Made by a program: the position numbers and the translations under genes | Source: a bacterium | GTDB lineage: Bacteria; Electryoneota; Electryoneia; Electryoneales; Electryoneaceae | Direction: 5' to 3' | Length of the DNA stretch: 64,000 nucleotides | NCBI GenBank assembly: GCA_020444425.1 | Contig: JAHLLB010000004.1 | Coordinates: 1 to 64,000 of the forward strand | Notes under the pieces: model-generated | Told to the model about the DNA's origin: nothing | The model's input: the letters and a program-made list of their open reading frames with translations, nothing else | Databases searched by the model: none | Shown here: one piece after another, positions 24,575 through 61,174 of the stretch | How positions within the stretch are numbered: the first letter of the stretch is position 1 | Layout of the letters: the number at the start of each line of letters is the position of its first letter

Positions 24575-24727
24575 TGCCCTCGGGCTTCAGCCCGGGATTC
24601 TCTGGCCTGTTGTCAAGCATTAACCCGCGTCTGACATCCGTCTCTGATCCTACCCGGGCTAAAGCCCGAGGACGGTGTTGCGATGGTACTTCAACATTCG
24701 ACAATCCCGGACTAAAGTCCGAGGGCA
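24575..24727. repeat. Cluster of three REP-like palindromes (GGGCTTCAGCCC / GGGCTAAAGCCC / GGACTAAAGTCC)
   Basis: 24575-24598 (+), 24647-24673 (-), 24704-24727 (-). Confidence 0.85.
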
Positions 24728-42694: not shown

Positions 42695-42993
42695 GTTATT
42701 CTCGGAATAATTATAAATAAAGTAAATCCCTAAAAAGCGTAATATCAACGAGATCCGCGACGAGACTAACTCGTGTGAATGATGTATTTGGAATTTATGG
42801 ATAAGTAATGAATTTTGAATTTTTTTCAAACCGGGTTGAGTACCCTTTGGCAATCATTATATCCTCCGGGAAGGAAGGATAAATCGGCAGTTGCACGGCC
42901 CCCTCTGTCTTGATTGCAGCCGATTCACGTGGTTGAGCTTTGGTAACGAGTTAAAAAAGATGCTCGTTGGATCAAACACAGAGAGGGAGAAGG

Positions 42994-45333
42994 ATGAAAA
43001 AGCTCTTGTTGGTGTGTCTCAGTCTGATGATTGCCGCAGGTGCTGTTTTTGCGGTCGATTACGACAAAGAGGCAGTGCAGATTGCAAAGCAGACGTACTT
43101 CAGTGGGCAGGAACTGACTGCTGATCAGTACATCATGCTGCGCGAAATGAAGATCATCCGTCCGGATGGTCCGTCGATTGATTTCGTTGGTGGCCCGGAT
43201 GCTTTCGGCTACACGTACAAGGACAGCGAAGAAGCGGATGGTCCGGCGTACGTGTGGGAAGACATCACGGGGACTGGTACCGAGATCGGTGACCTTCTCG
43301 GCGATGACGATGTCGAAGGTCCGCTCCCGATTGGGTTCACATTTACCTACTACGGCGTTGACTACACAGAGTTCTACGTCCATTCGAATGGTTGCGTAAG
43401 CCTCGTTGATCTCGGTGGTACCGCAAGCTGGTCGAACAACTCATTGCCCGCATTCCCCGGTCCGGTAATCGCATGGTGCTGGGATGACTTTGACATCAAT
43501 AGTGGTGTTGATGGCGACGTCTTCTATGAAACCCGCATGGTTGACAGCCAGAATGCGCTGGTCATGTCGTATGTCGATTGTGCTCACTACTCCGGCCCGG
43601 CCTCCGGCCTGATGAGTGGCCAGATGATTCTGTTCGAAGACGGAACCATCAAACTCCAGTACAACTACTTTGATGCCAACTGGCCGGTTGATGTCCAGTC
43701 CATCGGTATTGAAGATGGCGGCGGTGTCAACTTCCTGCAGGCTGACTTCTACGATGTTCCGGCGAACTATCCGTATGACAACCTCGCCATCGAGTTCTAT
43801 CCGCCGGCTGGCGGCCCCGATGCGAGCCTCAGTGGTTATGTCTACGATGCCGACACCAACGATCCGATCGTCGGTGCGACGGTCACCCTCGGCGGCAACA
43901 GCACGATGACCGATGGTTCCGGCTTCTACGAATTCCTCGACCTGTATTCTGGTATGTTCTCCTGGTCCGTGAGCGCTACGGGTTACACCGGCCAGTCCGG
44001 CGACGTGGACATTCTGCCGGGTGCGAACGCCGTGGACTTCTACCTTGCTCCAGTGAACCTGGACGCGGATGTTCTCATTGTGGATGTGGATGAAACGCTC
44101 GACTCCGGTCCGGCGATTGACGCCGTCCTGCAGGGTCTGGGTTACAACACGCTGTACACGAACGATTTCTTCGCGTATGACTGGATGAACTACGACAAGG
44201 TTTTCCTGTTCACCGGCATCTATCCGAACGATTTCGACATCGCAACCGATTCTCCGGAAGAAACCGCGATCATTGACTTCATCAATGGTGGTGGCAAGCT
44301 GTACCTGGAAGGTGGCGACAACTTTGGTTTCACCCCGCCGGCTAACCTGATGGCGCTGTTGCCGATTGCCTCGACCAACGACGGTGGTGGCGACCTTGTC
44401 AACGTCATGGGTGAAAACGATCTCGCCGGTCTCGACATGAACTACCTCGGCGAAAACAACTGGATCGACCACATCGAGCCGACGGCTGACGCGTCCCGGA
44501 TCCTGTACAACCCGGCTGACGATGCAGGCTGCGGTATCCTCAATAACGACTTCGCGCTGTTCAGCTTTGAGCTTGGTATGCTCGAGGATAACCTCGACTG
44601 GACGCGTGAGGATATCGTTTCGTTGATCATGGATTACCTCTGCGCCGCGCCGCCGATGTACGAAGTGATCGTTGAGTGCACCACGCCGATCATCCCGATG
44701 GATGGTGGCTACGCCTGCTTCAACATCACCGTCAACAATAACACGCAGATGAGCCACAGCGCGCTGATCTGGGCGAACGTCTACTGCCCGGGTGATTGTG
44801 TTGCCGGTCCGTTCGGCTTCATGTGCATGGAGTTCCCCCCGGGAACCACCTACTTTGACAACGTCTGCGTCTGGGTGCCGGCTGGTGCGAGCGCTGGTGA
44901 CTACCAGTTCAACGTGATGGTTGGTGCGATCCAGCAGGGTTACATCGCTGCGATGGGCTCCGCCATGTTCACCAAGGAAGGCCAGAACATTGCTTCCGTC
45001 GGTACGCCGGATCTCGTCTTCCGTGGCTTCGGTGTTGCTGGTGAAACCGCAGCTGCGGGTCTGCCGACGACGTATCAGATGTCCAACGTCTACCCGAACC
45101 CGTTCAACCCGACCGCAAACGTTAACATCGCCTTGCCGGAAACGGCTGAGCTGACCGTGTCGGTCTTCAACATCATGGGTCAGGAAGTTGCCACGCTCGC
45201 CAGCGGTCAGTTCCAGGCGGGTACGCACAACTTCGTGCTCGACGGCAGCAACCTCGCCAGCGGTCTGTACTTCGTCCGTGCGACCGTTCCGGGTCAGCTG
45301 AACGCGATGCAGAAGGTTACCCTGATGAAGTAA
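42994..45333 (+). CDS. Secreted multidomain protein, paralog 2 of 3, with type IX sorting domain
   Basis: Signal MKKLLLVCLSLMIAAGAVFA; GGPDAFGYTYKDSEEADGPAYVWEDI; C-term YPNPFNPTANVNIALPETAELTVSVFNIMGQ...VTLMK. Confidence 0.9.
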   Translation: MKKLLLVCLSLMIAAGAVFAVDYDKEAVQIAKQTYFSGQELTADQYIMLREMKIIRPDGPSIDFVGGPDAFGYTYKDSEEADGPAYVWEDITGTGTEIGDLLGDDDVEGPLPIGFTFTYYGVDYTEFYVHSNGCVSLVDLGGTASWSNNSLPAFPGPVIAWCWDDFDINSGVDGDVFYETRMVDSQNALVMSYVDCAHYSGPASGLMSGQMILFEDGTIKLQYNYFDANWPVDVQSIGIEDGGGVNFLQADFYDVPANYPYDNLAIEFYPPAGGPDASLSGYVYDADTNDPIVGATVTLGGNSTMTDGSGFYEFLDLYSGMFSWSVSATGYTGQSGDVDILPGANAVDFYLAPVNLDADVLIVDVDETLDSGPAIDAVLQGLGYNTLYTNDFFAYDWMNYDKVFLFTGIYPNDFDIATDSPEETAIIDFINGGGKLYLEGGDNFGFTPPANLMALLPIASTNDGGGDLVNVMGENDLAGLDMNYLGENNWIDHIEPTADASRILYNPADDAGCGILNNDFALFSFELGMLEDNLDWTREDIVSLIMDYLCAAPPMYEVIVECTTPIIPMDGGYACFNITVNNNTQMSHSALIWANVYCPGDCVAGPFGFMCMEFPPGTTYFDNVCVWVPAGASAGDYQFNVMVGAIQQGYIAAMGSAMFTKEGQNIASVGTPDLVFRGFGVAGETAAAGLPTTYQMSNVYPNPFNPTANVNIALPETAELTVSVFNIMGQEVATLASGQFQAGTHNFVLDGSNLASGLYFVRATVPGQLNAMQKVTLMK

Positions 45334-45621: not shown

Positions 45622-47949
45622 ATGCACGCCATTGCCAGAAGGAAAAACGGAATGCTCCACCGAACCACCACACTTGCACTGGTCGCCCTCCTGTTCCTCG
45701 CAGGTCTGGCGGTCGCAGAGGTCAGCCCGGATCCGGCTGGCGGAAACGCCGACGATCTTCGCTCTCCGTTCCTTAAGCACATCGCTGAAGCGTGGAGTGC
45801 TGGTGAACCTCTGACTCCCGCACAGATCAATCTGCTTCGTCCGTTCATCAATTTCGACATGAATCAGATCGACCTCCAGACCGGACCCGACGCTTTCGGC
45901 TACCGCGCCATCGACAGTGATGAAGAGGACGGTCCCGGCTTCACCTGGTACGACATCACTCAGACCGGCGAGGAGATCGCCGCGCAGTACATGCTGGACG
46001 ATGAGGACGTTGTCGGGCCCTTCGAGATCGGCTTCGATTTCCCGTTTTACGGCGAGAACAAGACACACTTCTGGGTGCAATCGAACGGTGTTATCAGCTT
46101 TTTCCCAACCTTTGTTTTCTCGCTGAACTACCCGCTCCCGAGTTGGTTTTACGGGCCGATGATCGCCTGGTTCTGGGATGACCTTGATCCAGACAACGGC
46201 GACGACGGCGGCAACATTTATTACGAGACTCGCGAAATCGGCGGGCACCAGGTGCTCATCATCTCCTTCATCGAAATTGATGAATACCCCGACGGACCGG
46301 ACCAGGACAATGTCACCGCGCAACTGCTGCTGCGTGACGATGGCAAAATCCGCATTCAGTACCTGCATGTCGACGAGGAGATGCACACCGAAAGCTGCAC
46401 CGTCGGCATCCAGAACGATGATGGGACCATCGGGGTCCAATACCTGCTCAACGCCATGCCTGCCGACCTCCTGCGCGACAGCCTGTCGGTTCAGTTTGAC
46501 CTGCTCGAACCCACCGTGTTCATCCACGGCATCGTCCGCAATGCCATCTCTGCCAAACCCATTCCCGACGCGACCGTGCAGGCGAACGGCTTTTCCGTGA
46601 TCAGTGCGACGGACGGCTCGTTCAGCATCGGACCGTTTGTTGAGGGGCAGACGATCGAGGTGTACACCCGTGCGGATGGATTCTACTCAGAAACAGTTGA
46701 CGTGCAGATCGTGGCACCGACAACCACGACCGCAATCGGGCTGTACAAATTCCCGCAACCCATGGCCCAGAACTACCTCAGCACGATGGAAGTGAACCGG
46801 GGACGGTTGACGGCTGAGGATGACAACTTGAACTGGTTCTACGGTATCCCCGAGAATCAGCCTGACCAGGCTCACTCGGGCGAACGCGCCTGGGGTACGC
46901 GACACGACGGCAACTATCTCCCGCTGGCACAGGACTGGCTGGTGACGCTGCAATCATTCCGCATAATCAGTGAAAACGCCCGGCTAAGCTACTGGCACTG
47001 GTACAGCATCGAGGACTATGACGGCTACAATGTCCAGATTTCCACCGACGCCGGCGACACCTGGACACTGCTCGAACCCATCGGCGGCTATCCCGATACC
47101 GACGGTGTCTGGGTGAACGGATGGCAACCGTGCTTCAACAACCTCGGCGCGAACAACAGTGTCTGGGAACCTGTCGAATTCGACCTCAGCGACTATCAGG
47201 GGCAACAGGTTTGGTTCGGGTTCTATTTCGCTTCGGACGCGTTCATCCAGCGGCCGGGAGTAACCATTGACGACTTGCAGGTGTACGTCGAGGAACGCGG
47301 ATTCCCGATTGAACTGTACGCCGAAACAACGACCTCGTTGATCGGGGAAAACGGCGGCACGCTGGAATACTTCTACATCATCTACAATGAGTCACTTGAC
47401 CCTGTCACCACCGATCTGTGGTCGCAGGTCCGGATGCCAAGCGGAAACGATTACGGCGATCCGGATCAGCAGCTGCTCACCGTTGAACCCGGATTCACAA
47501 CCATTGCGGAACAGACAATGAATGTTCCCGTCAACGCCCCGGGTGGACGGTACCGTCTGGACGCCTTCACCGGCGAGTATCCGGGCATGATCGACGAATC
47601 CGCGTACTTCAACTTCAGCAAGGAACTCGACTCGCAGGGCGACATTCCCGCCCCACCGCCACCTCCCGGCGCAGGTCCCGGCGAGGAGACACATGCGCTG
47701 AGTGTGCATCCGAATCCGTTCAACGAAGCTGCGTCGGTCCGCTTCACCTTGCCGGTGGACGGACGGGTGTCCCTGCGGCTGTACAACGTGCAGGGACGCG
47801 AAGTGATGCGGTTGAACGACGACAAATGGACCGCTGGTTCGCACGCCGTTTCCTTCAACGCCGGCGATCTGGCCAGCGGCGTGTATTTCATCCAACTGCA
47901 GCAACCCGGCGGACAGTCCACGATGCAGAAGGTTTTGCTGCTGAAGTGA
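45622..47949 (+). CDS. Secreted multidomain protein, paralog 3 of 3, with type IX sorting domain
   Basis: MLHRTTTLALVALLFLAGLAVA signal; TGPDAFGYRAIDSDEEDGPGFTWYDI; C-term HPNPFNEAASVRFTLPVDGRVSLRLYNVQGR...VLLLK. Confidence 0.88.
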   Translation: MHAIARRKNGMLHRTTTLALVALLFLAGLAVAEVSPDPAGGNADDLRSPFLKHIAEAWSAGEPLTPAQINLLRPFINFDMNQIDLQTGPDAFGYRAIDSDEEDGPGFTWYDITQTGEEIAAQYMLDDEDVVGPFEIGFDFPFYGENKTHFWVQSNGVISFFPTFVFSLNYPLPSWFYGPMIAWFWDDLDPDNGDDGGNIYYETREIGGHQVLIISFIEIDEYPDGPDQDNVTAQLLLRDDGKIRIQYLHVDEEMHTESCTVGIQNDDGTIGVQYLLNAMPADLLRDSLSVQFDLLEPTVFIHGIVRNAISAKPIPDATVQANGFSVISATDGSFSIGPFVEGQTIEVYTRADGFYSETVDVQIVAPTTTTAIGLYKFPQPMAQNYLSTMEVNRGRLTAEDDNLNWFYGIPENQPDQAHSGERAWGTRHDGNYLPLAQDWLVTLQSFRIISENARLSYWHWYSIEDYDGYNVQISTDAGDTWTLLEPIGGYPDTDGVWVNGWQPCFNNLGANNSVWEPVEFDLSDYQGQQVWFGFYFASDAFIQRPGVTIDDLQVYVEERGFPIELYAETTTSLIGENGGTLEYFYIIYNESLDPVTTDLWSQVRMPSGNDYGDPDQQLLTVEPGFTTIAEQTMNVPVNAPGGRYRLDAFTGEYPGMIDESAYFNFSKELDSQGDIPAPPPPPGAGPGEETHALSVHPNPFNEAASVRFTLPVDGRVSLRLYNVQGREVMRLNDDKWTAGSHAVSFNAGDLASGVYFIQLQQPGGQSTMQKVLLLK

Positions 47950-48057: not shown

Positions 48058-48273
48058 TGCCCGTGTTTGCTTGCAAACGCGGGTATGTTGCTCCAGGAAC
48101 GGACGAACGTAACCGGCGTGTGATTCATGCCCACGACATTCATGTCGTGGATCCTCCGCTCGTGATACAACACCGACACCGTACCTCAACGGACATGCCC
48201 TCGGGCTTCAGCCCGGGATACACAGAAGTCAAAGGAACCACCGTACTAACGACCTCGGACTTCAGTCCGGGAT
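48058..48273 (+). repeat. Cluster of four REP-like palindromes
   Basis: 48058-48084 (GTTTGC type), 48128-48152 (ACGACAT type), 48196-48219 (GGGCTTCAGCCC), 48250-48273 (GGACTTCAGTCC). Confidence 0.9.
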
Positions 48274-48447: not shown

Positions 48448-48478
48448 AAAAAAATGTCCCGGCGTGTACCGGGACATG
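48448..48478 (-). terminator. Rho-independent terminator for the minus-strand gene ending at 48514
   Basis: AAAAAAATGTCCCGGcgtgtaCCGGGACAT (poly-U on minus). Confidence 0.88.
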
Positions 48479-48513: not shown

Positions 48514-50019
48514 TCACACCGGCATGTTCTGCAACTTGTCAATCAGCGTGCGCACCGCCGCAGCGCGGAAGATCCCCCACGCCTGCATGCTGCCACTCAG
48601 CATTTCCAACCGGTCCACCCACAGCGGCAGGTTTTCCAGCGCAACTGGGGCGTAATCCTCAATGCCTTCGTCCGTGTCAATCGGCATCGGATCGGCGTCC
48701 CCAATTTCAGCCAGGTACAACCGGCTTTCAAACGGGAGCATGTATTCGTCCGGCCCACTGTACGTCAGTGTCGCCAGCGGGATCGAGCGAATGCCTTCCA
48801 GCCCGGTTTCCTCGTACAGTTCCCGGTGGTATGCCGCCTGAATGTCCTCGCCACGATCCACCCCGCCACCCGGAATGCGATAGATCCCGGACGGGTAGTC
48901 AATCTTGCGTTGCAGACAAATTCGTCCATCGCTGCGGCGTAACGCGAACACCACCTCGCCGGAACGGTCTGACCGGGTAAACGGCCTGAAGTTCACGCCC
49001 GGCAGCCGCACATGCACCGGTTCAAAATCGAGCGGCTTCCCTTTCAGCTCGGAGATCATCGTCCCGGCCGCGACACCATCCGGCGACACGTCCGCGTGAC
49101 GGAATCCGAGATACTTGAACGCCTGTTCGATCGCAATCGCGCCGTGCAGGATGATATCGGCACGCAACGGATTGCCCGGCAGCTGGCGACGCTGGCTGAC
49201 TGTCATCTGCGACAGCTTCTCGACCAACGCACGCACGATATCACGATCGAGGTAGTTGATCGCGTCCGGCCCATGTTCTTTCGCGAGCAGCATCGGCACG
49301 TAGCCGGTGAGCGTCGTCGCGGTCGCGCCAATCAACGTGACTTCGGCGTCACGTGGCGGACGTTCGACATGCTTCAGCTGTTCCCGGACAACGTTCTTGA
49401 TGTGCTCCAGCTCCGCCGGAACCGGCGGATCACTGGTCGGTGCGGCTTTCCACAGGTGGCTGGCGCCCAGCTCGAGGCTGATGTACGATTCCGGAATCGC
49501 CCCGGAACCCACCGTCATCTCCACCGACCGGCCGCCGAGATCAAACGTCACCAGCGGCTTGAACCCGTGCCCGTTGACACGGCCCTTCTGCGTGAGCTGA
49601 AACTCACGCACGGCGAAAAACCCAGCGGCGGCTTCTTCCTTCGGCGTCAGGATGCGAGTGCTGACACCGTGATCCTCCTTGAGCCGGTTGATCAACTCGA
49701 CAGCGTTGTTCGCCTTGCGCAAAGCAGCGGTTCCGACCGCGCCCTGCACAACCGCGCCATGTTCCTTCGCTTCCTGGATCAGGTATGCGGCAGCATCGAG
49801 AACGCGTTCGATGGTCGCTTCGTCGATGTTGCCCTCTTCATCGATCCCCCGATTAAGTCGAGTTATTCGCTCATCGAGGTGAACGGTGCGGAAAGAATCT
49901 GCTTCGGGATAGCTGCAAATCGCGAGTTTCATAGCATTGCTGCCAATATCGAGCATGGCATGGAGTGGTGTTACGACGGGGGTGGTGCGAGCAGGACGAT
50001 CTTGTGCGACAGGCTGCAT
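48514..50019 (-). CDS. Ppx/GppA phosphatase - Nudix hydrolase fusion protein
   Basis: Ppx/GppA: MLDIGSNAMKLAICSYPE, VTFDLGGRSVEMTVG, LGASHLWKA, LIGATATTLTGYVPM; Nudix box GGVDRGEDIQAAYHRELYEETGLEG; GGGAGG RBS before ATG 50019. Confidence 0.88.
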   Translation of the reverse strand: MQPVAQDRPARTTPVVTPLHAMLDIGSNAMKLAICSYPEADSFRTVHLDERITRLNRGIDEEGNIDEATIERVLDAAAYLIQEAKEHGAVVQGAVGTAALRKANNAVELINRLKEDHGVSTRILTPKEEAAAGFFAVREFQLTQKGRVNGHGFKPLVTFDLGGRSVEMTVGSGAIPESYISLELGASHLWKAAPTSDPPVPAELEHIKNVVREQLKHVERPPRDAEVTLIGATATTLTGYVPMLLAKEHGPDAINYLDRDIVRALVEKLSQMTVSQRRQLPGNPLRADIILHGAIAIEQAFKYLGFRHADVSPDGVAAGTMISELKGKPLDFEPVHVRLPGVNFRPFTRSDRSGEVVFALRRSDGRICLQRKIDYPSGIYRIPGGGVDRGEDIQAAYHRELYEETGLEGIRSIPLATLTYSGPDEYMLPFESRLYLAEIGDADPMPIDTDEGIEDYAPVALENLPLWVDRLEMLSGSMQAWGIFRAAAVRTLIDKLQNMPV

Positions 50020-50075
50020 GGGGATTCCTCCCAAACTGATGGGCACTCGCCGGTGGAATGCCGCGGTGGTAGGAC

Positions 50076-51071
50076 TCAGAAGCCATTCATTTTCGGGTCG
50101 CCTGCGGTCCAGTCCTGGCCGAGGCTGCGTACGAATTCCTCCACGGTTTCAACCACGTTGGTATCGAGATGCCCGTTTTCCACGGCGGCGTGCGCCATTC
50201 GCAACGCCTCCTTCATCGGTAACGGGCCTCGGTAGGGACGTTCAGTCACCAGCGCATCAACAAAATCGACAGCGGCGATGATGCGCGCGTTCAGCGGAAT
50301 GTCCTCACCCACCAACTGATCCGGATAGCCAGTGCCATCCATCCGTTCGTGGTGATGACGAATGATCGGCAGGCTCGGCTGCAGGCTGCGCAACGGCTTG
50401 CAGATTTCCTCGCCACGGATCGGGTGCGTGCGCATGATCTCACGTTCTTCCGGGGACAACGGTCCCGGCTTCAACAGGATCGCGTCCGGAATCGAAATCT
50501 TGCCGATGTCATGCAGAATTCCGCCACGCTGCAACGCCTGCAAGTCATCCTCGCTCACACCCAGGCGCTTGCCGATTGACACCGAATACGATGACAACCG
50601 CTTGCAATGCCCTTCGGTGTAGGAGTCCTTCGCTTCCACCGTCATCGCGAGCGAGAAGATGATCGACTCAGCACGTTCAAGGTCGTCGGTAAACTGCTTC
50701 AAACGCAGGAGCGAACGGATCCGTGCGGCGAGTTCAGACAGCTGGAACGGTTTGGAGATAAAATCGTCCGCCCCGGAATCGATACCGCGCACGCGGTCTT
50801 CCACACCACCGAGCCCGGTCAGCAGAACAACCGGCACGAGGCGCGTATCCGGGTTGGCCTTTATGCGCTGGCACAGCTCAAACCCGTCCATCACCGGCAT
50901 CATCACATCGCTGAGCACCAGGTCAGGTGGGCGGCTGGTCACCGCTTCAAATGCGTCTTTTCCGTTCTCGGCGAGCTGAGCCTCATACCCCAACGCCTCG
51001 AGCATCTGCCCGAGAACCTCGCGGGTATCAAGTTCATCCTCAGCAACGAGAATCCGGGGGATTGAGTTCAT
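50076..51071 (-). CDS. Response regulator with HD-GYP domain (c-di-GMP phosphodiesterase-like)
   Basis: REC: ILVAEDELDTREVL...LVLSDVMMPVMDGFELC; HD-GYP: GGILHDIGKISIPDAIL, HHERMDGTGYPDQLVGEDIPLNARIIAAVDFVDALV. Confidence 0.94.
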   Translation of the reverse strand: MNSIPRILVAEDELDTREVLGQMLEALGYEAQLAENGKDAFEAVTSRPPDLVLSDVMMPVMDGFELCQRIKANPDTRLVPVVLLTGLGGVEDRVRGIDSGADDFISKPFQLSELAARIRSLLRLKQFTDDLERAESIIFSLAMTVEAKDSYTEGHCKRLSSYSVSIGKRLGVSEDDLQALQRGGILHDIGKISIPDAILLKPGPLSPEEREIMRTHPIRGEEICKPLRSLQPSLPIIRHHHERMDGTGYPDQLVGEDIPLNARIIAAVDFVDALVTERPYRGPLPMKEALRMAHAAVENGHLDTNVVETVEEFVRSLGQDWTAGDPKMNGF

Positions 51072-51156: not shown

Positions 51157-52221
51157 TTACGAAGCGAGCACCAGAGAAACGTCTTCCTTCTCACCTACGG
51201 AACCGACATGCCAAGCGGTCTCCCCGCGCTCACGCATCCCCTTCAAGAAGTCCTCCACACGGCTCTCCGGTAACGAAATCAGGAGCCCACCCGATGTTTG
51301 CGGGTCAGAGGCCAGTCGTCGCATCTCATCCGGAACCGAGTCTTGAATGCGCGCATCCTTCTCCACGAATGCGAGATTCCGCCGCTCCCCACCGCTGAAG
51401 AACGAGCCCGAGGTGGCGACCTTCATCGCGCCGTCGATTGCCGGTAAGTTGCCCGCATTGAGCGTCACCGTCACTCCCGAAGCCACGGCCAACTCACGCG
51501 CATGTCCAATCAACCCGAACCCAGTAACATCGGTCGCGGCGTGGGCGTCGCATTCACGTGCGACCTCCGCCGCCGCACGGTTGAGCCGGACCATCACCTC
51601 CGTCATCGCACGGACAGCGTTCTCGTCCGACGCGTCATTCATCATTGCGTTCGAAATCAGCCCCGTGCCAAGCGGCTTGGTCAGAATCAACGCGTCCCCG
51701 GGCTGCGCGCCGGAATTGGCCAGCATCCCCTTGCTTGGATCGAGCACTCCGGTCACCGACAGACCAAACTTGATCTCCTGGTCCGACACCGAGTGCCCGC
51801 CGGCCACTGCCACGTTCGCCTCAGCGCAAACCGCCGCCGCGCCACGCAGAATGTCCGCCAGCACCTCCTCCGGCAATTTGCCATCGGGGAAGGCGACGAT
51901 GTTCAGCGCCGTCACCGGCGTCCCACCCATCGCATACACGTCCGACAGGCTGTTCGCCGCGGCGATCCGGCCATAATCGTAAGCGTCGTCCACGATCGGC
52001 GTGAAAAAGTCGAGCGTCAGAACAAGGGCGAGCTCATCCGTCAGCCGATACACGCCTGCATCGTCCAGAGTCGAGGGTCCGACCAACAAATTCGGGTGCT
52101 GCTGTTTCGGCAGCAGCGGCAAGATGCGATCCAGCACCGCCGGATCAAGCTTGCTCGCTCAACCGGCGCACCGAGTAAACTGGGTCAAACGGAACCGTTC
52201 GCTGGCTTTCTTCGTCGTCAT
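51157..52221 (-). CDS. selD: Selenide, water dikinase; selenocysteine-containing form with in-frame TGA at codon 21
   Basis: Extended N-term MTTKKASERFRLTQFTRCAG-U-ASKLDPAVLDRILP aligns with the SelD active-site segment; rest DALILTKPLGTG..., DVTGFGLIGHARELA, SDPQTSGGLLIS; 355 codons. Confidence 0.93.
52128..52146 (-). promoter_or_regulatory. Putative bacterial SECIS hairpin for selD
   Basis: RNA GAUCCGGC-GGU-GCUGGAUC: 8-bp stem (one G-U), GGU apical loop, starting 12 nt after the UGA. Confidence 0.8.
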
Positions 52222-52451: not shown

Positions 52452-52805
52452 ATGAGTTTATTGAGCGCCACAGACCTGGCGATCCAGGCTCGGAAAATCG
52501 CCCATGATTTGTGTGCAAAGATGCAGGCGTTGAACACAGGAAATGGCAACCGTCATGAGCTGGTTGACGCATGCAAGAGCCTGCAAGTTCGAGTTTCTCA
52601 GGTTGTGGACGAGCTCGAACGATCGCTGGTGCACGAAGATGAGACAGTTGCCGTCACCTTCTTCCCGTTCCGGCAGCAGGGCGACGACGTGACTGAACCG
52701 CAGGTTCGTGAATCCGGATCCAGCTATCGCGTCGGTGATTCCCCCGCGGAACAACACCGCGGCACCATGATGCTGCCATCGACACCACCCGAGGAGTCAG
52801 AATAA
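52452..52805 (+). CDS. Small hypothetical protein (117 aa)
   Basis: Stand-alone ORF with AT-rich upstream region and a following hairpin; no family recognised. Confidence 0.5.
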   Translation: MSLLSATDLAIQARKIAHDLCAKMQALNTGNGNRHELVDACKSLQVRVSQVVDELERSLVHEDETVAVTFFPFRQQGDDVTEPQVRESGSSYRVGDSPAEQHRGTMMLPSTPPEESE

Positions 52806-52899: not shown

Positions 52900-53670
52900 T
52901 CAGGTACGCAGGAAGTTCTTCACCACATGAATCCCATCCGCCAGCTCATCCTCGTTCTCACGGAATGTATCCACCAGCACCACGCTCGCGTCCGGGAATT
53001 GCTTACGGAACAGATTGCACGCGTTCGGCTCATTATCGAACACCGCGATCACCTCACCCGCCTCGGTAATCGGCTTGATCAGGTCTTGCTTGAATTTGAA
53101 CTCGTCCGCACCGTCCACATCGCTCATGAACAACGCGCCCACCTCGCCACGCGGAGCGGGCAGCTCGTACATACTCAACGAGCGTTCGGTGCCGAATGTC
53201 GACTTGTTCCGATTCCGCTTGCCGGCGAGATACAGCGTCGTTGACCCGGCTTTTGATAATTCCTTAATGAAGTCGACAATGCCCGGCGTCGGCAAATCAA
53301 ACATGATGTACTGGTCGCTGGTCGCCTTCTTGTCGTACTGCTCCTGAATCCAGCCGAGGATGCCCTCTTCCACAATGCCGACGTCGCGCAGCGTGTCCTT
53401 AAGATCAAACTTCATCGTGCGCGGTTTGATTGACGCGATCGCGGTGCGGTGTTCATCCGTCAGCGGGATTTCCGGATTCTGATCCATGATCAGATCGGCG
53501 AGGACTTTCATCACCCGCGGACGTTTGTCCAACAGGCAATCGTCCACATCGACCACGACCAGCGGCAACGTCTTGCCACGGTTGAAGATTTCGCGGGACT
53601 TGTCGGCCAGCTGCTCAAACAGCTCGGCGGGATGTATCGTTCGGTTCTGGAGATCGTCGGCGTTCAGCAT
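52900..53670 (-). CDS. HAD-like hydrolase-fold protein
   Basis: LVVVDVDDCLLDKRPRV (motif I-like) and AVFDNEPNACNLFRKQFPDASVVLVDT (motif IV-like). Confidence 0.6.
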   Translation of the reverse strand: MLNADDLQNRTIHPAELFEQLADKSREIFNRGKTLPLVVVDVDDCLLDKRPRVMKVLADLIMDQNPEIPLTDEHRTAIASIKPRTMKFDLKDTLRDVGIVEEGILGWIQEQYDKKATSDQYIMFDLPTPGIVDFIKELSKAGSTTLYLAGKRNRNKSTFGTERSLSMYELPAPRGEVGALFMSDVDGADEFKFKQDLIKPITEAGEVIAVFDNEPNACNLFRKQFPDASVVLVDTFRENEDELADGIHVVKNFLRT

Positions 53671-55894: not shown

Positions 55895-58800
55895 ATGGCA
55901 CGCTTGATTCCGATATTCCTCGCCCTGTTGTTCCTCACAGCTTCCGCGTTCGCGGTGGACAACACGATGGCCGACCCAATGGTCAGGCCCTATGCTGTTA
56001 CCAGCAACGCAACCGGCGTCACGTTGAGTTTTGACAACTTGACCGTGAGCTGGACTGCTGAGGGAGATGCCGTCGTACCCGAACTTCCGGGTGCAGGTGA
56101 ACTGGGAGAGGCTGGGGGGCCACGTCTTCCGGTGTACAGCGAGCTGATCGCTGTGCCTGACGGACTCAACCTGGTGGTGGCGAATGTCAACGTCACCTGG
56201 CGGGACCTGGGCGTGCGGCAGCTCGCACACGATTCAGGCCAGGAGTTCGAGACACCGCTCGACATTCAGCTGTTCAAGAAAGCCGCACGTGAATCCGAGG
56301 AAACGGTGAGCGTCGGCAAAACAGGACGCTGGCGCGACCTGCGTGTCGCTTCGGTCGCGATCCGCCCGATGCGCGTTGACGAAGCCACCGGGCACGTGTA
56401 TGTCGCGGACGATCTGGACATCGAATTTGCGTACGAACCGGACACCGACTGGTCCGACGACGGTCTCGACCCGCCGGGGATCAGCGAAGCGTTGCTGCCC
56501 CTGTATGAGATGTACGTCGTCAACGCGGTCGACTTCATCGACTACAGTGAGGTCATTCGCGGTACCTACCTGATGATCTACCCGCAACAGTGGGAAGATC
56601 CGGTGCGAACCCTGGCTGCGTGGCGCGCGCAAACCGGCTTCACCGTTCAGATGGCAACCACCGCCGAAACTGGCAACTCTTTCGACGATATCTACGACTA
56701 CATCCGCAACGTGTACGAAAACGCCAACCCGCCGCTGGAATACGTTGTGCTCATGGGCGACATCGACGATTTGCCGCAAATCGCGACCGAGTACGTCGAA
56801 CCGGGCACACCCTGGCCGATTGACCCGCAAATTGGGACCGACCAGAAATACACCTACGACATTTATGCCGGCAATTCCTACGAGGATGTGCTTCCGCAAT
56901 ACATGATCGGGCGCGTCTCGGTGGATACTGAAACCCAGTGTCTGACCATGGTCAACAAGATCATCCAGTATGAATCGCAGCCACTGATCGGCACCCATCC
57001 GGAACGCTGGACCCGTGCGGTTACCATTGCGGACGCGACGTACGCGATCAGCACCGCGTTGACCCAGGACTGGGTGAAGTGGCAGTTCGAGAATAACGGC
57101 TTCACCGACGTTCACCAGATCGTGCGTACCTGGAGCAATCCGGGCAACGCGCAGATGATCTCCAATGCGATCAACAACCATACCAGCTGGGTGTCGTACC
57201 GCGGATTCGGGTCACACACCTACTGGGCGGGACCGTATTTCTACGACGACGACGTCGAAGACGACATCAATAACACGGATGAGCTCGTTGTCATCACTTC
57301 CATGGTGTGCGGCGGCGGAGCGTACGATGAGCTGGACGACGATCCCTGCTTCGGTGAAACCTGGATCCGGCACGGCTCCCCCAACGACCTCAAGGGGGCG
57401 GTTGCCTTTGTCGCACCTTCGGAAATCGACACTCATACCCGCTGGAACAACATGATGCTGGGCGGGTGGTACACCGCGCTGTTTGACCAGGGGCTGCGTA
57501 CCCTCGGCCAATGCATGCTGTCGGCGAAGATTCAGCTGCACAACAACTATCCGTACCTGTGGAATCCTGGCGGCACCAACGAAAACAGCGTCTGGTTCTA
57601 CTTCCACACCTACAATATCCTCGGCGATCCGGCGCTGCAGCTGCGTGCCGAGGTTCCGAAAGTGCTTGAAGTTGACCATCCGGTCGATCTGCGCGAAAAC
57701 GATTCCTACGTCGAAACACTGGTGCTTGACCAGTACGGCGTACCGGTCGGCAACGCAATGGTAGTAATCACCACAGATCTTACCAGCATTGTCGGGCAGG
57801 CGCGGACGAACGCGTCCGGCGTTGCCAACGTGCTGCTGGACGAAGCGTTGATCCCGGGCGGCCAGTACACCCTGACCGTTACTCGCGCGGATGTGGAACC
57901 CTACTCGTATACCTTCGGCGACGGTGGTGCCGGCGTGGTCAGCATGGTCAGTACAAACGGCGTTGAAGACGCGTCCGACCCCGACACCAACAACGATGGC
58001 TATCTCAACCCGGGCGAACTGATTACACCGGAAGCGTTGCTGGAGGTCGTCAAGGATGGCGGACTTGACCAGATGCTGGTTTCGATCAGCATTCCGTCCG
58101 AATACGGTTCCGTCGAGAATTCCTACCAGTTCTTCGGCACACAGGGGCAGGGAAACCAGGTGACGACGGACGAGCTTCGTATCCGGCTGAAATCCACCGT
58201 GGCGAACAACACACGCGTGCCTGTCACCTTCCAGGTGTTGTCCAACGACGGCAACCAGTCACATCTGGCCGAGCTGCAGCAGATCAAGACTCCGCAGCTG
58301 GTAGTTTCTGACGTGGTCTTCCAGTCCGATTGGTATCCGGGCGATCAGTCGATGGTGGATGTGCGCCTCGATAACCTGGAAACGCTTGTCGGTGCCATGT
58401 CGGTAACCGCGCAGTTGATGGTCGATGATCCGTTCGTCACCGTTCTGGACGGCGATGGAGCCTGGGCAGCCATCTCCGGCGGCGCAACCAATGTCGGAAT
58501 GAACGATCTGTTTGCGTTGGAAATCTCGGATCAGGCGTACCCCGGCCATGTGGTCGAGGGCACGCTGATGCTCACCACAGACCGCGGATTCGATATCGAG
58601 CTCGGCGTCGAGTTTGAGGCGATGGGTTCCGGACCGGATGTCCCGACCGGACCCGCCGGCCCGGGTTACTACATCTTCGAAGACACCGATCCCGGCTACG
58701 ATTACACACCCAACTTCACCTACGAGTCCATCGTCGGGAACGGAGGCTGGGATGTTGGTCTCGACGATGAGGACGAAAACGAAGACGATGTCGTCACCGT

Positions 58801-61174
58801 CGACCTGCCGTTCACCTTCCCCTACTGGGATCAGTTCTACGATGAGGTGTCCATCTGCTCGAATGGCTGGATCACCTTCGGCGATACCGACTTCTACTTC
58901 TTCCGCAACCGGCCGTTGCCTGGCGCGTTGACCCCGGTTGGTGCGGTCTGTGCCCTCTGGGACAACCTTCTCTTCGACACCAACAACTCAGGCGTGTTCG
59001 CCTACCATGACCAGATGAACGGCTATTTCGTGATCGAATGGTACCGCGTCTGGCATGAACGCGACCTGCAGTGGAATGGCAACCTGCTTAACGATCCGAT
59101 GCATTTCCAGATCTTGATTCTGGATCCGGCAATGCATGGAACCGCTGGTGACCTCGGCAAGATCGCCATCCTGTACGACGATATCCGAAACGGGGATGGG
59201 TCGGAAAACTACCTCACCATCGGCCTGACAAGTCCCGACGGCCGCGAAGGCCTGCAGTATGAGTTCGCCGATGAACCGGCTTCGACGGCAGTTGGAGTCG
59301 AGGATGGCCGCCAGCTGATGATCGCCGCGACCAACGTCGCCGAACCCGCGCGGCTCGAGTATTCGCCGCCGCTGGTGCAGATGAATGCTGAAGCCGGTGG
59401 AAACGGCAGCGCGGAATTTACGATCCGCAACGTCGGTGGCCGGGCGACCACCTTCGACATCTGGCCGGAAGGCATTGACTATTCATGGGGGCTGCCAGGC
59501 GAAATCGACAACTTCGGCGAGCCGGATGATCTCGGCTACCGCTGGTACGACAGCCGGGAAACCTTCGGACCGGAATACCAGTGGGTCGACATCGAACAGG
59601 CTGGGAATGAAGTCACGATGAACACCGGTGATCCGGATGGATTCGGGTCCATCTCCGATGAAATCGACCTTCCGTGGGACTTCGACTTCTACGGCGAAAC
59701 CTATTCCAGCTTCTGGATCTGCGAATCCGGCTACATCACCTTCAGCGAGCCGGTGGACGGGTACGGCGAAAGCGCGAACACGTCGTTGCCGCGACCCTAT
59801 GCCCCGCTGGCTTCGATCTTCCCCTACTGGGATAACATCGGCACGGATGAAGGCGGCACAGTTTATGTCCGCACCATGAATGCAGCCGTAGTGGTGACCT
59901 GGTCGGGGATGCACCAGCTCGACTGGGATACGGACGATGGTCCGTACACCTTCCAGGTTGTGTTGACGTCGGACGGCGCGATTCACACCCAATACCAGGA
60001 AATGATCGGCGACCTGGACAGCGCCACCATCGGTATCAACGACGAAACCGGTGACATAGGATTGTTGACCGCGATGAATACTGCGGTGCCGGCGTTCCTC
60101 GAGGACGAACTGGTGGTTCGCTTCTCGCCGGGTCTGCCGTGGTTGACAACCACGCCCGCGACGCACAGCATCGGCAAGGGCGAATCGATCACCGTTCAGC
60201 TCTCCGCCGATTCGGATGACATGCTGGCAGGCCTGCACCAGGGCCGCCTGTTGCTGCTGAGCCAATTGACCGATGAAGCGTACGCAATTCCGGTCGACTT
60301 CCTCGTCACCGATGAGTCCCTCGGTTATGCGCCGCAGATTGGTGATCTGGCCGGCGAGTCGATCGCTCCGGGCGGAACGTTCATGCCGATTGCGCTCGAT
60401 CCGTACGTTGAAGACTGGGACGATGCGGACGCCGACCTCGACTGGGTCTGGTACGGTTCAGACTCGCTGGACGTGTCGATTGACGACAACCACATCGTGA
60501 CGGTTACGCCTGTGGCTGGCTGGAGTGGTCCGACGACAGTCTTCTTCCGCAGCACCGACCCGATGCTTAATTACCAGACGCAGCCGCTGGTCTTTGACAC
60601 TGGCGACGCCAACGATCCGCCACGCTTCCTGACCGCCACCCCGGACGCCCTCGGCGAAACCGGGTTGGATATGACGGTCAACTTCAGCGTCACCGTTGAA
60701 GATCCGGAAGAGGATACCTTCGAACTCGAATGGTATCATGACGGCGGTTTCATCGGCAGCGGCACTTCGGTCGATGTCACCTTCGACACCGAAGGCACGA
60801 CCACGATTCTGGTCATCGCGCAGGACGCTAACGGCGCTGCAAGTGAGATCCGCTGGACGGGCAATGTCTCGGATGTGGGCGTGTTCGATTCCTCGGACGC
60901 CCCGCTGCCGGAAACCAGTTCGCTGGAAGCGGTCTACCCGAATCCATTTAACGCGTCCGTGGTGTTGCGCTATGCGTTGCCGCGGTCGTCGAATGTGCAA
61001 CTCGTGGTCTACAACCTGCTTGGCCAGGAAGTCGCGCGTCACATGCTGCCGGCTTCTCCGGCGGGACGGCACGAAATCGTGCTGGATGCGACCACCTGGG
61101 CCAGCGGCCTGTACTTCCTCGACTGGAGAGCGGGTGATGTTCGCCAGGTACGAAAAGCCGTGTTGCTGAAATAG
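55895..61174 (+). CDS. Gingipain-like C25 family cysteine peptidase, very large, with type IX sorting domain
   Basis: VSYRGFGSHTYWAG (catalytic His) and VVITSMVCGGGAYDELDDDPCFGETWIR...GAVAFVAPSE (catalytic Cys); C-term YPNPFNASVVLRYALPRSSNVQLVVYNLLGQ...AVLLK. Confidence 0.93.
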   Translation: MARLIPIFLALLFLTASAFAVDNTMADPMVRPYAVTSNATGVTLSFDNLTVSWTAEGDAVVPELPGAGELGEAGGPRLPVYSELIAVPDGLNLVVANVNVTWRDLGVRQLAHDSGQEFETPLDIQLFKKAARESEETVSVGKTGRWRDLRVASVAIRPMRVDEATGHVYVADDLDIEFAYEPDTDWSDDGLDPPGISEALLPLYEMYVVNAVDFIDYSEVIRGTYLMIYPQQWEDPVRTLAAWRAQTGFTVQMATTAETGNSFDDIYDYIRNVYENANPPLEYVVLMGDIDDLPQIATEYVEPGTPWPIDPQIGTDQKYTYDIYAGNSYEDVLPQYMIGRVSVDTETQCLTMVNKIIQYESQPLIGTHPERWTRAVTIADATYAISTALTQDWVKWQFENNGFTDVHQIVRTWSNPGNAQMISNAINNHTSWVSYRGFGSHTYWAGPYFYDDDVEDDINNTDELVVITSMVCGGGAYDELDDDPCFGETWIRHGSPNDLKGAVAFVAPSEIDTHTRWNNMMLGGWYTALFDQGLRTLGQCMLSAKIQLHNNYPYLWNPGGTNENSVWFYFHTYNILGDPALQLRAEVPKVLEVDHPVDLRENDSYVETLVLDQYGVPVGNAMVVITTDLTSIVGQARTNASGVANVLLDEALIPGGQYTLTVTRADVEPYSYTFGDGGAGVVSMVSTNGVEDASDPDTNNDGYLNPGELITPEALLEVVKDGGLDQMLVSISIPSEYGSVENSYQFFGTQGQGNQVTTDELRIRLKSTVANNTRVPVTFQVLSNDGNQSHLAELQQIKTPQLVVSDVVFQSDWYPGDQSMVDVRLDNLETLVGAMSVTAQLMVDDPFVTVLDGDGAWAAISGGATNVGMNDLFALEISDQAYPGHVVEGTLMLTTDRGFDIELGVEFEAMGSGPDVPTGPAGPGYYIFEDTDPGYDYTPNFTYESIVGNGGWDVGLDDEDENEDDVVTVDLPFTFPYWDQFYDEVSICSNGWITFGDTDFYFFRNRPLPGALTPVGAVCALWDNLLFDTNNSGVFAYHDQMNGYFVIEWYRVWHERDLQWNGNLLNDPMHFQILILDPAMHGTAGDLGKIAILYDDIRNGDGSENYLTIGLTSPDGREGLQYEFADEPASTAVGVEDGRQLMIAATNVAEPARLEYSPPLVQMNAEAGGNGSAEFTIRNVGGRATTFDIWPEGIDYSWGLPGEIDNFGEPDDLGYRWYDSRETFGPEYQWVDIEQAGNEVTMNTGDPDGFGSISDEIDLPWDFDFYGETYSSFWICESGYITFSEPVDGYGESANTSLPRPYAPLASIFPYWDNIGTDEGGTVYVRTMNAAVVVTWSGMHQLDWDTDDGPYTFQVVLTSDGAIHTQYQEMIGDLDSATIGINDETGDIGLLTAMNTAVPAFLEDELVVRFSPGLPWLTTTPATHSIGKGESITVQLSADSDDMLAGLHQGRLLLLSQLTDEAYAIPVDFLVTDESLGYAPQIGDLAGESIAPGGTFMPIALDPYVEDWDDADADLDWVWYGSDSLDVSIDDNHIVTVTPVAGWSGPTTVFFRSTDPMLNYQTQPLVFDTGDANDPPRFLTATPDALGETGLDMTVNFSVTVEDPEEDTFELEWYHDGGFIGSGTSVDVTFDTEGTTTILVIAQDANGAASEIRWTGNVSDVGVFDSSDAPLPETSSLEAVYPNPFNASVVLRYALPRSSNVQLVVYNLLGQEVARHMLPASPAGRHEIVLDATTWASGLYFLDWRAGDVRQVRKAVLLK

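Follow-up and report, generated by a model that had tools for sequence, protein, structure and literature searches.

A Ppx/GppA–Nudix Fusion Protein Conserved across One Family of Electryoneota

Known Ppx/GppA and Nudix Proteins

Proteins of the Ppx/GppA type may be distinguished by length. Short Ppx proteins (TIGR03706), such as those of Aquifex (structures 1T6C and 2J4R) or Rv0496 and Rv1026 of M. tuberculosis, display a domain I/II ASKHA fold without a domain III, with the Aquifex Ppx described as consisting of the N-domain only (PMC11234463). Rv0496 hydrolyses short polyphosphate (polyP), Rv1026 is without exopolyphosphatase activity, and neither hydrolyses pppGpp, for which E. coli GppA and PPX served as positive controls in the same study (PMC3411833). 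Long Ppx/GppA proteins, i.e., these two E. coli enzymes along with the PPX of D. radiodurans (DrPPX), add to the same N-terminal catalytic module an HD-like domain, Ppx-GppA_III. Nudix hydrolases, as exemplified by the plant-type Ap4A hydrolase 1F3Y, DR1025, RppH, and DIPP2, have in common instead the Nudix fold and its box.

Considered here is a protein in which a short Ppx/GppA module precedes a Nudix domain, the latter occupying the C-terminal place of the HD-like domain in other Ppx proteins. It is encoded within a 64,000-nucleotide stretch of a bacterial contig (JAHLLB010000004.1, from position 1), which we call the window. In a search of the open-access literature, no description of a Ppx–Nudix fusion was found. 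What is new is the combination, and it is restricted by lineage; the domains themselves are known, and fusions of hydrolase domains confined to one lineage are in general not rare. Where a fusion is conserved, it hints directly at linked substrates for the two enzymes. Here it joins a polyP/pppGpp phosphatase fold to a Nudix domain, beside a regulator of the c-di-GMP-phosphodiesterase type, and so may open a way into the nucleotide-polyphosphate metabolism of a phylum that is uncultivated, as well as into the role of short Ppx proteins when polyP is absent.

Architecture of the Fusion

The gene (Table 1) is a single open reading frame, running without interruption from an ATG at 50019 and encoding 501 amino acids; the original prediction, made from the sequence alone, had likewise described one uninterrupted frame, though with no strand given. 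A GTG at 50046 would extend the frame to 510 codons, but the ATG is the more likely start as it is preceded by GGGAGG. All of the signatures to which that prediction pointed are found in the translation, that is, DIGSNAMKLAI, DLGGRSVEM, and GATATTLTGY for Ppx/GppA, plus a full Nudix box, GGVDRGEDIQAAYHRELYEETGLEG.

Table 1. Positions of the fusion gene, its parts, and its neighbors within the window.
Feature	Position	Strand	Basis and remarks
Ppx-Nudix fusion gene	48514..50019	−	Single ORF; PF02541 + PF00293; AF2 model
Ppx/GppA (ASKHA) half, short domain I/II type, residues 41-326	49042..49899	−	PF02541; Foldseek PDB matches
Nudix half, residues 357-464, complete Nudix box	48628..48951	−	PF00293; alignments; Foldseek
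Response regulator, REC + HD-GYP (HD_5)	50076..51071	−	PF00072 + PF13487; directly upstream of fusion
selD (selenide, water dikinase)	51157..52221	−	TIGR00476; in-frame TGA (Sec) 52161-52159
117-aa protein without Pfam match	52452-52805	+	Conserved in two related loci (L040, L042); strand opposite selD
HAD-like protein, weak HAD match	52900..53670	−	Profile match; synteny (neighbor further upstream)
Intrinsic-terminator-like hairpin and T run	48454..48477	−	Consensus match; just 3' of fusion stop

Against Pfam, the protein matches first PF02541 (Ppx-GppA; E 3.3e-35, 122 bits versus a curated cut-off of 27) and then PF00293 (NUDIX; E 2.3e-13, 50.7 bits versus 21.1); a conserved helical tail, WGxFRA, comes after the Nudix half. 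The HD domain that ends long Ppx proteins indeed is absent, i.e., there is no match to Ppx-GppA_III (PF21447). Its absence is not unusual, however, since short Ppx proteins consisting solely of domains I and II were frequent in a survey of 386 genomes. More specific NCBIfam models were not reached by either half. The fusion scores 133.3 bits against the exo_poly_only model (TIGR03706, cut-off 307), a test that is not very telling given that the genome's ordinary Ppx falls short as well (241.9 bits). Against the GppA model (NF008260, cut-off 624) it scores 43.6 bits, and its best values for the MutT, RppH, NudC, and YtkD equivalogs, with cut-offs of 98 or more, are approximately 17 to 31 bits.

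Modeling with AF2 predicts with confidence a defined relative placement of the two domains, with a pLDDT of 92.3 and a pTM of 0.90 at full length (90.8 and 0.87, respectively, for the Nudix half alone). Using Foldseek, the best PDB matches of the full model are the Ppx structures 1t6d, 1t6c, 2j4r, and 8jgr, with H. pylori Ppx/GppA and E. coli GppA also among the matches. The Nudix model matches many Nudix hydrolases, e.g., DR1025, RppH, and ymfB/NudJ, with no clear best.

Distribution and Origin

Seven genomes of the window's family were compared, that is, the window's own (G000) and six relatives (G001 to G006). The fusion is present in six of these (G000 to G005), with the other five proteins 66, 61, 39, 38, and 33% identical to that of the window; carriers include Candidatus Electryonea clarkiae. 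Each of the six homologues matches PF02541 and PF00293 and no other Pfam family. In the seventh genome (G006, 80% complete) an N-terminal Ppx piece lies one gene downstream of the same HD-GYP regulator as that beside the window's fusion, but is cut by the contig end before any Nudix part could show. The fusion gene thus is real and is conserved across one Electryoneota family. That two genes had been joined by sequencing or assembly error, a hazard which the original prediction itself had raised and which draft assemblies allow in principle, has nothing else in its favor and is refuted, to the point of having next to no probability, by the same frame and domain junction recurring in six independent assemblies from five genera.

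Beyond the family, the fusion was found in none of 32 genomes from other families of the phylum and in none of the 386 genomes of the survey noted above. Nor was it seen in further surveys of 388 and 400 genomes, though these weigh little given a strict threshold that would miss independent fusions of distant domains. Elsewhere there were no carriers among about 1,100 genomes, a sample covering unrelated fusions incompletely. A search of plasmids returned Ppx-domain matches only, with none spanning both halves. In trees, the Ppx halves of the fusions form one clade (SH-aLRT 100), for which reason a single fusion event in the family's ancestor is likely, and in the Nudix tree the stand-alone and fused proteins are separated, with modest support.

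Joining need not imply coupling. Two independent housekeeping activities might have been fused for the sake of co-expression or stability only, and stand-alone relatives of each half do exist, i.e., short Ppx proteins and Nudix proteins of about 200 amino acids. Against this, five genera have kept the halves together, at 33 to 66% identity, with no separated copies seen, and the predicted placement of the one domain relative to the other is a defined one (pTM 0.90). We consider uncoupled activities to be distinctly improbable.

The Ppx Half and Polyphosphate

Residue columns were read from an alignment of 79 Ppx sequences, an uneven and Acidobacteria-rich sample, with numbering by way of an E. 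coli Ppx sequence. The spacings of this reference (R-E 28, E-D 22, D-E 7, and R-R 31) equal those published for DrPPX, supporting the mapping of DrPPX residues. It is from DrPPX that the reference residues for metal, water, and polyP binding are taken (PMC11234463).

The core Asp, Arg, Thr, and Ser are those of short Ppx proteins and do not vary among the six fusions. Equivalents of DrPPX D7, R86, E114, D136, and E143, both catalytic Glu residues thereby included, are present together in five of the six, that of the window among them. The exception is G002, where Asp replaces both catalytic Glu. The Candidatus Electryonea clarkiae protein (L046, 195-1583) has Asp at both of these positions along with Leu for DrPPX R271, and neither ppk nor an ordinary ppx was detected in its genome.

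Unlike in short Ppx proteins, the Arg of the REG motif, at the polyP entrance (R302 by the published linker numbering of DrPPX), is lost from all six fusions, being A, A, A, P, G, or H, whereas it is kept in 54 of 61 other Ppx sequences. The third Gly of DxGGG, equivalent to the alpha-phosphate contact G140 of DrPPX (PMC11234463), is Arg in the clade of the window (G000, G001, and G003), a state seen nowhere else among the Ppx sequences collected. The equivalent of R271, which is Arg in 66 of 67 other Ppx sequences, is missing among the fusions from G002 and G004 only. The window's protein retains, of the R271, R302, and G140 contacts, R271 alone.

These changes can be set beside the polyP genes of the family. 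A ppk1 is found in G000, G001, G003, and G005, a ppk2 in G000, G005, and G006, and an ordinary ppx in all seven genomes except G002 and G004. In the latter two, none of ppk1, ppk2, or ordinary ppx was detected and yet the fusion is kept, an absence that is suggestive rather than proof given assemblies that are each 92% complete. These are exactly the two genomes whose fusions have lost R271. In the window's genome, by contrast with the fusion, the ordinary long Ppx (contig C20; PF02541 + PF21447) sits beside a polyP-kinase gene.

It is conceivable, the Ppx half being of an exopolyphosphatase family, that the protein is a combined endo- and exopolyphosphatase, with the Nudix domain cutting polyP internally and the Ppx domain trimming the new ends. 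Nudix enzymes that are endo- and exopolyphosphatases are known, that is, TbNH4 and TbNH2 of T. brucei (PMC6522730) as well as yeast DDP1 (PMC8064635), and the window's genome has both ppk1 and ppk2. Such an enzyme nonetheless would have been kept by G002 and G004 despite no detectable ppk1, ppk2, or ordinary ppx, would be without the entrance Arg in every case and without R271 in those two, and would duplicate in the window's genome an ordinary Ppx already found beside ppk. We view the combination as quite unlikely. More generally, polyP, which the original prediction had included among possible substrates, is weakened as a candidate and is unlikely to be the main one, as the entrance Arg is lost from all six fusions, G140 has become Arg in three, and two carriers lack detectable ppk1, ppk2, and ppx. 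True hydrolysis of polyP or of NTPs by the Ppx half is possible, since five of the six retain both catalytic Glu.

That the Ppx half might be a decayed pseudo-domain was rejected as a general description, as it evolves about as fast as ordinary Ppx: in the same genomes, identities to G000 are 63, 61, and 41% for the Ppx half versus 68, 58, and 42% for ordinary Ppx. The two catalytic Glu-to-Asp changes of G002 do stand out from this general picture.

The Nudix Half

The box pattern applied here was Gx5Ex7REUxEExGU. Its metal-binding residues (Gly, Glu, and Arg) are intact in all six fusions, with the final Gly of the box being Ser in G001. The Nudix half is the more conserved of the two in 14 of 15 pairwise comparisons, with identities to G000 of 72, 62, 47, 45, and 44% versus 63, 61, 41, 36, and 31% for the Ppx half. 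With the one half better conserved, and the other changing at about the rate of ordinary Ppx, both are under constraint.

The nearest stand-alone relatives are Nudix proteins of about 200 amino acids from three genomes, all outside of the phylum (G097, G238, and G082). These share with the fusion the same box and a C-terminal W-x-A-W-G-x-F-R tail, but have no fused Ppx; those of G082 and G097 are 30 to 36% identical over the fusion's Nudix half. No functional clue was seen near such genes in three neighborhoods (L033, L034, and L035). Better-known Nudix hydrolases (1F3Y, DR1025, RppH, and DIPP2) are 17 to 27% identical in fold matches, with no diagnostic substrate motif in common. A Pro approximately 16 residues past the box is seen in ADP-ribose pyrophosphatases. 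Among the fusions it occurs in four of six only, and assigning a Nudix substrate by way of signature motifs led nowhere.

Alarmones and a Preferred Reading

The original prediction had been of a two-step enzyme clearing pyrophosphates or alarmones. Its broader part stands, in that there are two domains of hydrolase fold, a Nudix box in six of six, a Ppx core in five of six, and a shared operon. As to alarmones, the Ppx half would remove the 5' gamma phosphate of pppGpp and the Nudix half would cleave its pyrophosphates, yielding pGp. A precedent for the outcome is found in E. coli, where MutT and NudG break (p)ppGpp down, giving pGp, both in vitro and in vivo (PMC5845004); the fold matches to H. 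pylori Ppx/GppA and E. coli GppA, and the one RelA/SpoT protein of the window's genome, also are in keeping with it. Against this, pppGpp is left uncleaved by the short M. tuberculosis Ppx proteins (PMC3411833), the positive controls of that study, E. coli GppA and PPX, are long and end in C-terminal domains not found in the fusion, and no (p)ppGpp pointer is present among the operon genes. Clearance specifically of alarmones is, on balance, unlikely.

We prefer, with about even confidence, a Nudix pyrophosphohydrolase joined to a Ppx module of altered specificity that binds phosphate chains, the protein acting upon or sensing some small phosphorylated metabolite and not polyP. The fusion itself, its conservation, its residue states, and the predicted fold are what the analysis shows; what we infer as to catalysis, ligand, and coupling of the domains is as follows. 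The Nudix domain, as the invariant catalytic part, would cleave a pyrophosphate linkage within that metabolite, probably a nucleotide, a prediction made because the metal-binding box is complete. The Ppx half probably binds a phosphate chain, as its fold and most of the phosphate and metal site are kept. It might then remove an end phosphate, either from the metabolite that the Nudix domain cleaves or from one related to it, or else report the presence of ligand to the Nudix domain.

Gene Neighborhood

The HD-GYP regulator and selD, both of which had been picked out as neighbors from the outset, share the fusion's strand and stand directly upstream of it. An HD and an HHxERxDGTGYP-like motif are readable in the regulator. 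G000, G001, G003, and G005 all show selD, regulator, and fusion in this order, and further upstream the HAD-like gene and the small opposite-strand frame are common also to G003 and G005. About 5 kb separates selD from the fusion in G004, where no regulator is seen nearby, and the G002 contig breaks off immediately upstream of its fusion. Judging by gene order, spacing, and conservation, the three genes probably are co-expressed. The hairpin beyond the fusion's stop probably marks the operon end, as a match to consensus in a region where terminator-like hairpins are no more numerous than in shuffled sequence.

With this operon in mind, the reporting role of the Ppx half can be carried further, that is, to a ligand sensor with an active site shifted from polyP, gating the Nudix domain and, along with the REC-HD_GYP regulator, forming in Electryoneota a unit that would tie nucleotide-pyrophosphate turnover to c-di-GMP control. 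We offer this as a doubtful extension.

The neighboring selD is itself a selenoprotein gene, its in-frame TGA being read as Sec to give CAGUASK. The TIGR00476 score rises from 344.6 bits without the Sec-containing stretch to 372.5 bits with it (model positions 1-309), the same TGA is present in four relatives (L040, L041, L042, and L047), and SelA is encoded in the window's genome. Standard ORF calling misses this N-terminus.

Elsewhere in the window, a REP-like palindrome, CCCGGRCTGAAGYCCGRG, occurs in 7 copies versus 0.06 expected, grouped at 307-378, 24579-24723, and 48200-48271 with copies about 54 bases apart. Large secreted proteins bearing the C-terminal sorting domain of type IX secretion (PF18962) are encoded at 42967-45333, 45622-47949, and 55895-61174 (+), the last being a member of the C25 peptidase family.
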